In this document: piece after piece, positions 10,518 through 44,189 of the stretch
Layout of the letters: each line of letters starts with the position of its first letter
Numbering within the stretch: the stretch's first letter is position 1
Assembly: GCA_021784595.1 (NCBI GenBank)
Contig: JAJYHT010000095.1
Span: forward strand, 1-47,120
DNA length: 47,120 nucleotides
From: Bacillota bacterium
Lineage (GTDB): Bacteria > Bacillota > Sulfobacillia > Sulfobacillales > Sulfobacillaceae
Reading direction: 5' to 3'
Program-made: the position numbers and the translations under genes
The notes under the pieces: model-generated
What the model was told of the DNA's origin: nothing
The model's database searches: none
Seen by the model: the letters and a program-made list of their open reading frames with translations, nothing else

Positions 10518-11807
10518 TCAGATGGAGTTTAAGGCGTTAGAGAGGTCATCCCACAAGTCGTCGATATGCTCCAGACCGACCGACAAACGAATTAAATCGG
10601 GTCCTGCGCCAGCCAACTCTTGCTCTTCGCGTGAGAGTTGTTGATGAGTTGTGGTAGCAGGATGGATGGCCATGGAACGGCTGTCGCCCACGTTGGCCAC
10701 GATCAGCCATAGCTTGAGATGGTCCATTACTTGCAATGCGGCCTTGCGGCCTCCTTTTACCCCGAAATTCAACATCGAACCAAAATGGCCCGCGCGAAGA
10801 TATTGGGTGGCTAAGGGAAAGGCTGGATCAGACTCTAGGCCCGGATAGTTAACCCAGGAGACCTCTGGATGGGCAGTTAGGCGTTGGGCTAGCTCAAGTG
10901 CATTGCGGCACGCTTGTTGCATGCGAATGACCAGGGTTTCTAGTCCTAAAAGAATCAGATAGGCGCTGTGGGGAGCTAATGCAGCTCCGGTATCTCTCAG
11001 CAGCTTGACACGCAGTCTAACCGCATATCCCGCGTCTCCAAAATCTGTGCCTAAAACCTTTCCGTGATAGCTTTGATCAGGCTCCGAGAATTGGGGATAT
11101 TGGGCGGTGTTGTAATTGAATTTTCCCGAATCCACTACCATCCCGCCAATGGAGTTTCCATGGCCCCCAATCCATTTGGTTAACGAATGCACCACAACGT
11201 CTGCTCCAAAGTCGATAGGCCGCTCTAGATACGGGGTGGGGAATGTATTGTCCACAATAAGAGGCAGCCCGTGGTTGTGGGCAAAGGATGCCCACTGTCT
11301 GAGGTCAGTCACATTGAGCCGGGGGTTGCCAATGGATTCGACGTACACGGCTCGGGTCTTTTCAGTGACTAATTGCGACGCCTGACTAAGTTTGTCGTCG
11401 GGTACAAAGCGTACAGTAATGCCATAGTCCTGTAATGTGGAGGTGAAAAGAGTCCAGGTTCCGCCATACAGAGACGTGGCCGCAATCAGTTCGTCGCCAG
11501 AGCGGCATACATTCAATACTGCTGCGGTAATGGCTGCCATTCCGCTGGAAAAGGCGACCGCTGCAATGCCGCCTTCTAAAGCCGCAATGCGTTGCTCCAA
11601 AACTCCAGTGGTGGGATTCATTATCCGGGTATAGATGTTCCCGGGCTGATCCAGGCTGAACAATTGTGCCGCGTGGGTGGTAGATTCAAATGCGTAGCCG
11701 ACGGTTTGGTATATGGGTGGAGAAATGGCGCCGGTGGTTGTTTCTGGGTCGTAGCCGGTGTGAATCGCAATAGTTTGTGGGCGCCAGTGGGATGAACGTG
11801 TTGTCAA
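10518..11807 (-). CDS. metY: O-acetylhomoserine sulfhydrylase
   Basis: The 429-residue protein is of the Cys/Met metabolism PLP-enzyme family. The start is a TTG at 11805-11807, eight bases after GAGGAGG. Visible motifs are YTRIMNPTTGVLEQRIAALEGG near the N-terminus, FSSGMAAI, the PLP-phosphate region, DNTFPTPYLERP, and the PLP lysine in VVHSLTKWIGGHG. The long insert and GDSRSMAIHPATTTHQQL fit MetY rather than MetB/MetC. It makes homocysteine from O-acetylhomoserine and sulfide. The substrate would come from the metX product encoded at 36.9 kb. Expression is controlled by the SAM-I riboswitch in its leader. Confidence 0.9.
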   Translation of the reverse strand: MTTRSSHWRPQTIAIHTGYDPETTTGAISPPIYQTVGYAFESTTHAAQLFSLDQPGNIYTRIMNPTTGVLEQRIAALEGGIAAVAFSSGMAAITAAVLNVCRSGDELIAATSLYGGTWTLFTSTLQDYGITVRFVPDDKLSQASQLVTEKTRAVYVESIGNPRLNVTDLRQWASFAHNHGLPLIVDNTFPTPYLERPIDFGADVVVHSLTKWIGGHGNSIGGMVVDSGKFNYNTAQYPQFSEPDQSYHGKVLGTDFGDAGYAVRLRVKLLRDTGAALAPHSAYLILLGLETLVIRMQQACRNALELAQRLTAHPEVSWVNYPGLESDPAFPLATQYLRAGHFGSMLNFGVKGGRKAALQVMDHLKLWLIVANVGDSRSMAIHPATTTHQQLSREEQELAGAGPDLIRLSVGLEHIDDLWDDLSNALNSI

Positions 11808-11871: not shown

Positions 11872-11980
11872 CCCTCTCATCTCTCAGCCGATTGGCTGCA
11901 GGAATTAGCACCCTAACTTGGGTAAAAGTCGGGTTGCCGGGCATCATCGGGCCAGTCCCTCCGCCACTCTCCATAAGAGG
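11872..11980 (-). promoter_or_regulatory. SAM-I (S-box) riboswitch upstream of metY
   Basis: On the minus strand the leader carries the class I SAM aptamer landmarks in order: CTCTTATGGAGAGTGGCGGA, GGGACTGGCCCGATGATGCC, CGGCAACC, GGTGCTAATTCCTGCAG and GAGAGATGAGAGG. The P1 helix forms between the CTCTTAT and GATGAGAG ends. No terminator is visible between the aptamer and the gene. Instead GGCCTCC (around 11843) can pair with the GGAGGTC ribosome binding site, which suggests control of translation. Confidence 0.93.
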
Positions 11981-13254: not shown

Positions 13255-13503
13255 TTATTTTTGTCTATCGTGGCTTTTCTCCAAGTAGACCCACCAGGTG
13301 TCGGGAAGTTCCAAGTGATTGGTGTAGCCGTGATAAATATTTCCGGTCATGTGCGCATAGGCCTGCATATCGCGCACTACAGACCATTTGTTAGTCAGGA
13401 TGTTAAGGCGAGTCCCCAACGGAGCCGGTTTTAGCGCATCAGTGACACTGATGAGGGGAGCCCGTCAGCATTGTCCGCGAATATCAATCTCTATAATTTG
13501 CAT
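13255..13503 (-). CDS. tusA: TusA-family sulfur carrier with in-frame UGA at the catalytic Cys (candidate selenoprotein)
   Basis: Reading from ATG 13503 (AGGGTGA lies seven bases upstream) to TAA 13255-13257 gives 82 codons, the normal TusA length. A TGA at 13465-13467 is the only interruption. The start reads MQIIEIDIRGQC-TGA-RAPLISVTDAL, and the later part is NILTNKWSVVRDMQAYAHMT then GNIYHGY. In TusA proteins the motif is DxRGxxCPxP. Here TGA falls exactly at the catalytic Cys, with Arg in place of the next Pro. TusA proteins carry a persulfide for tRNA thiolation, molybdenum cofactor synthesis or sulfur oxidation. Translation as selenocysteine is supported by the hairpin at 13437-13453 and the tRNA-Sec gene at 44094-44189. 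The alternative is a pseudogene with one nonsense mutation. Confidence 0.72.
13437..13453 (-). promoter_or_regulatory. SECIS-like hairpin downstream of the UGA codon
   Basis: On the minus strand CAUCAGU and ACUGAUG form a 7-bp stem closed by a GUC loop. The loop begins 18 bases after the UGA, the same distance I count for the GGUC apical loop of the E. coli fdhF SECIS as I recall it. Bacterial SECIS elements bind SelB through such a GU-containing apical loop. Confidence 0.6.
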
Positions 13504-13610
13504 GAATTATCACCCTATTGCCACGATACCAAACGATAGATTTAGAAGTCAAGAGCAAACGAGATCGAATCGGCATTTTGCACCTGTTTTCCAATGCGGC
13601 GCCACGAGGC

Positions 13611-44093: not shown

Positions 44094-44189
44094 GGGGGTA
44101 GGTGGAGGCCTGGTGCCTTCCTTGGACTTCAAATCCAATGGTCGGCCTCAGAGGTCGACGGTGGGTTCGATTCCCACATATCCCCGCCA
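44094..44189 (+). tRNA. selC: tRNA-Sec (anticodon TCA)
   Basis: The 96-base gene includes an encoded CCA (44187-44189). The anticodon stem TTGGA/TCCAA encloses the loop CTTCAAA, giving anticodon TCA (44129-44131), which reads UGA. The core GGACTTCAAATCC is the same as in E. coli tRNA-Sec. The acceptor GGGGGUA pairs with UAUCCCC (with one G-U) and can extend toward eight pairs. The long variable arm is CGGCCT-CAG-AGGTCG. The T arm is GTGGG/CCCAC around TTCGATT. The discriminator is G. Length, long variable arm and anticodon together fit selenocysteine tRNA; a tRNA-Ser would not have TCA. selC genes are common integration sites for islands, and the sequence downstream is indeed degenerate. Confidence 0.95.

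Follow-up and report, generated by a model that had tools for sequence, protein, structure and literature searches.

A TusA-fold protein with a predicted selenocysteine at its catalytic position in Sulfobacillus-group bacteria

TusA has a central place in sulfur relay, serving tRNA thiolation, molybdenum cofactor synthesis, and sulfur oxidation; so far as the surveyed sources show, it is known with cysteine only. The 47,120-nucleotide stretch of DNA analyzed here (the window), from a draft assembly (101 contigs) of an acid-loving Sulfobacillus-group bacterium, carries a TusA-like frame that contains one TGA codon, and the question it raises is whether this codon ends the protein or is recoded as selenocysteine (Sec). 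The gene, termed here the Sec-TusA gene, was delimited by frame reading and homology and lies on the minus strand (13255..13503). It comprises 82 codons, counting the TGA, plus a stop codon; the ATG start (13503-13501) and the TAA stop (13257-13255) were read from the sequence. The original prediction of a frame of this length, open except for one TGA, was confirmed in that no further in-frame stop occurs between 13503 and 13255, and the ribosome binding site proposed for it is plausible, AGGGTG at 13511..13516 on the same strand being the probable site by direct reading. Alignments place the TGA (codon 13; 13465..13467, minus strand), a predicted Sec codon, in the column that holds the persulfide cysteine of TusA. 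In the alignment of the clade described below, the codon immediately before the predicted Sec, TGC (13468..13470, minus strand), encodes Cys12. A gene caller that reads every UGA as a stop would shorten the product to about 12 residues.

With Cys put at the TGA, residues 4 to 56 of the window protein match positions 1 to 53 of the TusA profile PF01206 with a score of 32.9 bits, against a gathering cut-off of 28.6, and PF01206 was found in all 20 proteins scanned. AlphaFold2 (AF2) predicted the two-helix, four-strand TusA fold (pLDDT 90.6), and the nearest folds in the Protein Data Bank to this predicted structure were those of TsuB/YeeD and Escherichia coli TusA (query TM of ∼0.75 to 0.8). The profile match and the predicted fold uphold the proposed assignment to the TusA family. 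The further claim that the TGA takes the place of the persulfide cysteine also held: in a profile alignment that included solved structures (1dcj and 3lvj), codon 13 falls opposite Cys19 of E. coli TusA. The family hallmark CPxP, with its reactive Cys, is not met, as the protein has U-x-x-P, in which Sec replaces Cys and the first Pro is missing; we therefore classify it as a variant of TusA and not as an ordinary TusA. No NCBIfam model (June 2026) scored above its cut-off.

When 101 related genomes were searched at the protein level, the same TGA-containing frame was recovered in several of them. A family-alignment search across 154 genomes of the class then identified 15 genomes from five families, the window's own included, with a TusA-like frame and a TGA at one column; seven belong to the window's family, and the remainder are spread over four others. 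Because so many genomes and families share the column, the TGA is not there by chance. None of the 15 has Cys, TAA, or TAG at this position. All matches scoring at least 69 bits against the family alignment have the TGA, and matches without it never exceeded 64 bits. Random stops elsewhere in homologs would have refuted the original prediction, but the relatives have none and carry TGA at the identical column. Among these relatives is a named, deposited strain, Sulfobacillus acidophilus DSM 10332 (G008). No clade member outside the class was found in a phylum-wide sample of 398 genomes, so the family is, as sampled, restricted to the class, and no relatives were found in viral contigs or plasmids.

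A tree was built from 36 TusA-family proteins, with an E. coli outgroup sequence entered by hand; in it, the UGA genes formed one clade (support, 100/98) separate from all Cys-containing TusAs, including four paralogs from the same genome. Codon changes after the TGA were compared between the window and its relative G001, whose protein is 77% identical. There were 21 synonymous and 14 nonsynonymous changes (dN, 0.17; dS, 2.13, the latter close to saturation), and dN was also below dS in the remaining pairs with enough differences. By this measure, the sequence past the TGA is under purifying selection, and we therefore infer, from sequence and without protein data, that this part is made as protein.

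Several TusA-like paralogs lack the reactive residue. One Sec-less paralog, with Trp at the site, sits on a long branch within the UGA group and may derive from the Sec clade. Such a gene, with TGG at the catalytic column, lies in the window's genome (L030; G000 contig 44, 99030-99221, minus strand) and also in S. acidophilus (L125); in both, the Trp is preceded by Ser (DC[RN]GFSWxP), leaving no reactive chalcogen at the site. In a further paralog (L005:1501-1707; G000 contig 44, 112368-112574), RPMP replaces CPMP, so that no reactive Cys remains. In three TusA-like frames from related genomes (L021, L025, and L027), the similarity begins only at helix 1, and the CPxP region is missing.

Recoding of the UGA would call for a signal in the mRNA, and a bSECIS-like hairpin was identified from conservation and pair counts at 13437..13453 (minus strand). 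It has a 7-bp stem, and its apical loop, GUC (13446-13444; GTC in the DNA), begins 18 nt past the UGA. The window's subfamily comprises eight distinct sequences, and seven of them have the stem, together with a loop whose first bases are GT, in the identical position; the eighth, from S. acidophilus, has a 6-bp stem and the loop CGTGT with the center unchanged. In pair counts, 98% of cells were paired and two pairs showed compensatory change, against 16 to 64% paired in a control with slid partners. At the Sec codon of selD in the same genome, an apical loop stands at an equal distance when the two are compared by hand. In synonymous sampling, a stem of such length at the fixed position was rare in the window (P = 0.0006), but one anywhere nearby was not significant alone (P of ∼0.1), so the weight of the hairpin rests on its conservation and on the matching spacing in selD. 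In a second subfamily, CUGPP, the hairpins have 6 to 8 pairs and lie 18 to 22 nt past the UGA with less uniform loops. The requirement for a bSECIS element, a hairpin just past the UGA with G at the apex, is thus met clearly in the window's subfamily and more weakly in CUGPP.

The machinery for Sec insertion, whose absence would likewise have spoken against the original prediction, is present. The window itself contains a tRNASec gene (selC; 44094..44189, plus strand) with a UCA anticodon and an encoded CCA, 31 kb from the Sec-TusA gene (ARAGORN; Rfam RF01852, 72.9 bits). The genes selA, selB, and selD lie elsewhere in the genome, and selD carries a Sec codon of its own. One caveat is an in-frame TAA in selA (G000 contig 33, 65213-65215; L045:2074-2076) at a codon that specifies Gln (CAA or CAG) in five relatives; the TAA reflects either an error in sequencing or recent loss in the window's strain. 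At least one of selA, selB, and tRNASec was found in 13 of the 15 Sec-TusA genomes, and the two without these genes are 63% and 78% complete. Sulfobacillus is known to have a Sec-containing formate dehydrogenase and to oxidize sulfur by means of Hdr-DsrE-TusA clusters (PMC4378227).

The tRNASec model also matched a second gene above its gathering score (G000:C1:18026-18121; L008:1501-1596), which ARAGORN called as tRNACys. This gene has a GCA anticodon, U73, an encoded CCA, a 6-bp D stem with a 4-nt loop, and a long variable arm, and a canonical tRNACys is encoded separately in the same genome (C33:77813). Occurring beside a canonical tRNASec and tRNACys, it fits the structural definition of selC*/tRNAReC. 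Genes of this type, all with GCA, were found in 15 of the 154 class genomes, including the window's and that of S. acidophilus (L127, L128, and L132-L146); the filters were strict, and some genes may have been missed. In published work, selC* tRNACys reportedly inserted Cys at UGA via SelB, and tRNAReC is said to add to tRNASec and not to replace it. The gene found here shares the anticodon, U73, and tRNASec-like arms with selC* tRNAs of the kind described previously (PMC7609411); its cysteinylation and its delivery by SelB are inferred. Given this tRNA, the residue at the UGA may be Sec, Cys, or a mixture of the two. The prediction of a probable selenoprotein is accordingly supported by the conserved TGA and the Sec machinery, with Cys at the UGA still possible.

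Both oddities that the original prediction had pointed out next to the UGA, a Cys before it and the loss of the cis-Pro after it, are properties of the clade, whose motif is C-U-x-x-P as opposed to the canonical x-C-P-x-P: the preceding Cys is conserved in 14 of the 15 members, and the following residue is never Pro (R, G, L, or A). Asp51, the proposed general base of E. coli TusA, and Arg50 are proposed activators of its Cys. The former corresponds to D45 of the window protein, invariant in the clade, and the latter to R44, which is Arg in 12 of the 14 aligned members. In E. coli TusA, a hydrogen bond links Asp45 to the backbone of the Cys (PMC2854127). This Asp is described as conserved in TusA homologs, unlike in the clade, where the position holds Lys, Arg, or Asn overall and Lys in 12 of 14 aligned members. 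The replacement of this Asp, together with the missing first Pro of CPxP, means that the clade may have different partners or a different chemistry.

Compared with the TusA/SirA/YhhP proteins (PF01206; E. coli 1dcj/3lvj), the clade is thus alike in size, fold, position of the reactive chalcogen, the Asp51 equivalent, and mostly the Arg50 equivalent but differs in having UGA/Sec for Cys, an extra Cys at −1, no first Pro, Lys, Arg, or Asn for Asp45, and a T[ND]KxS-like sequence for the TDPG loop. The Cys of TusA receives sulfur from IscS (PMC2854127) and, in an acidophile, takes thiosulfonate from tetrathionate (PMC4175335). YeeD/TsuB (8j4c and 8k1r), which gave the best Foldseek E value, is likewise a stand-alone TusA domain with its reactive residue at helix 1; its Cys decomposes thiosulfate, and the first Pro makes a cis peptide with that Cys (PMC11073785). 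It differs in this Cys-cis-Pro arrangement and in its partner, the YeeE transporter, for which no gene was seen beside the Sec-TusA gene. YedF, a TusA-domain protein genetically linked to selenium use (PMC2432076), is as described a Cys protein with a C-terminal DsrE-like domain; the window gene is without such a domain, and matches of the clade to YedF models were weak or absent. Rhodanese-like, DsrE-like, and OsmC-like selenoproteins also handle sulfur and have Sec in place of the catalytic Cys, but their folds are unrelated to that of TusA.

Around 12 Sec-TusA loci, we saw no conserved operon or neighborhood indicative of a pathway. The window gene is flanked by genes for a phosphofructokinase and an unknown protein. 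The downstream phosphofructokinase gene is shared with G001, making the locus in that genome orthologous, and neighbors differ elsewhere; in S. acidophilus, they encode a flavin disulfide reductase-type protein, TauE/SafE, FmdE, ApbE, and a mercuric-reductase-like protein. Elsewhere in the window, a SAM riboswitch (11874-11979, minus strand) precedes a gene resembling that for O-acetylhomoserine sulfhydrylase (10518-11807).

Trivial explanations for the TGA would be that it is a true stop in a decaying tusA copy or a sequencing error. Any lone TGA could be an error, the same genome has a nonsense codon in selA, and the assembly is a draft of 101 contigs. This explanation is rejected as extremely improbable in light of the TGA in 15 assemblies, the purifying selection past it, the conserved hairpin, and the absence of TAA or TAG at the site, barring one error common to all of the assemblies. 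Decoding as tryptophan, through suppression or a changed code, could be suggested by the TGG found at this column in the paralogs of the window's genome and S. acidophilus; we consider it scarcely credible, given that TGA is the stop codon of 12 of the window's 30 long genes, that the tRNATrp anticodon is the ordinary CCA, and that Sec machinery and a hairpin are present.

Two other possibilities leave the recoding intact. The UGA could be read mainly as Cys, always or under selenium shortage, by the tRNASec-like tRNACys delivered by SelB, yielding a Cys-Cys TusA. The noncanonical tRNACys standing beside a canonical one, the similar genes in 14 other class genomes, among them S. acidophilus, and the TAA in selA fit this proposal. 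An ordinary Cys codon, however, would suit a Cys protein better, and none is found in clade members; selD with its Sec codon and a canonical tRNASec are retained; the tRNACys went undetected, under strict filters, in five Sec-TusA genomes (G005, G023, G031, G057, and f39); and the reported role of tRNAReC is as a supplement. We think Cys as the main residue unlikely. Alternatively, the protein may be a selenoprotein but no carrier, its Cys-Sec pair serving as a redox center (for reduction of peroxide, disulfide, or polysulfide) or as a binder of soft metals such as mercury. C-U-x-x-P in place of CPxP could alter the chemistry, CU motifs occur in the metal/organomercury selenoproteins HgcA, SaoL, and MbdU (PMC13188914), and the mercuric-reductase-like gene of S. 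acidophilus lies ∼2.7 kb from its Sec-TusA gene. Yet no metal or peroxidase gene is conserved beside the gene in other genomes, and the fold and the activating Asp and Arg match TusA, so that a noncarrier role remains a real possibility that we nevertheless doubt.

We favor, with good though incomplete confidence, a stand-alone, 82-residue protein of TusA fold that carries Sec through recoding of UGA codon 13 and for which a TusA-like carrier function is inferred. Homology, the conserved UGA, selection past it, the conserved hairpin, and the Sec machinery are the sequence-based parts of this interpretation; the biochemical function, including the acceptance and passing on of sulfane sulfur, is inferred by analogy, without protein or 75Se evidence. 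In the mechanism we propose, SelB and tRNASec would recode codon 13, guided by the hairpin just downstream, and so place Sec at the TusA persulfide position at the start of helix 1. The selenolate could then accept sulfane sulfur, a thiosulfonate, or a selenium group from candidate donors such as a cysteine desulfurase, rhodanese, DsrE, or tetrathionate, hold it as an Se-S or Se-Se adduct, and pass the cargo on. Formation of a Cys12-Sec bond would release the cargo, and a thiol reductant would reset the protein. It is plausible, but likewise inferred, that a selenolate needs less help with deprotonation and that resolution of the loaded state falls to the neighboring Cys. The altered transfer chemistry foreseen in the original prediction remains an inference.

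An inventory from 2026 that covers 119 families of prokaryotic selenoproteins (PMC13188914) does not include TusA, and the name does not appear in the main texts of the deep-Sep paper and three other surveys. The sequence evidence points to a genuine and probably undescribed selenoprotein form of TusA; priority is unproven, as the primary literature and the NCBI protein database were incompletely covered. We also entertain, as a speculative and rather improbable extension, a selenium-switched sulfur carrier in which the decoding of one UGA depends on supply: tRNASec would insert Sec in the presence of selenium, and the tRNASec-like tRNACys would insert Cys in its absence. If true, an acidophilic sulfur oxidizer would make a Cys-Sec or a Cys-Cys TusA of different reactivity. 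The availability of S. acidophilus DSM 10332, with its sequenced genome, makes the predicted Sec-containing protein testable. Its hosts draw their energy from sulfur under strongly acidic conditions, and in such bacteria a Sec-containing TusA, if true, would amount to a natural experiment on what selenium does to sulfur transfer.
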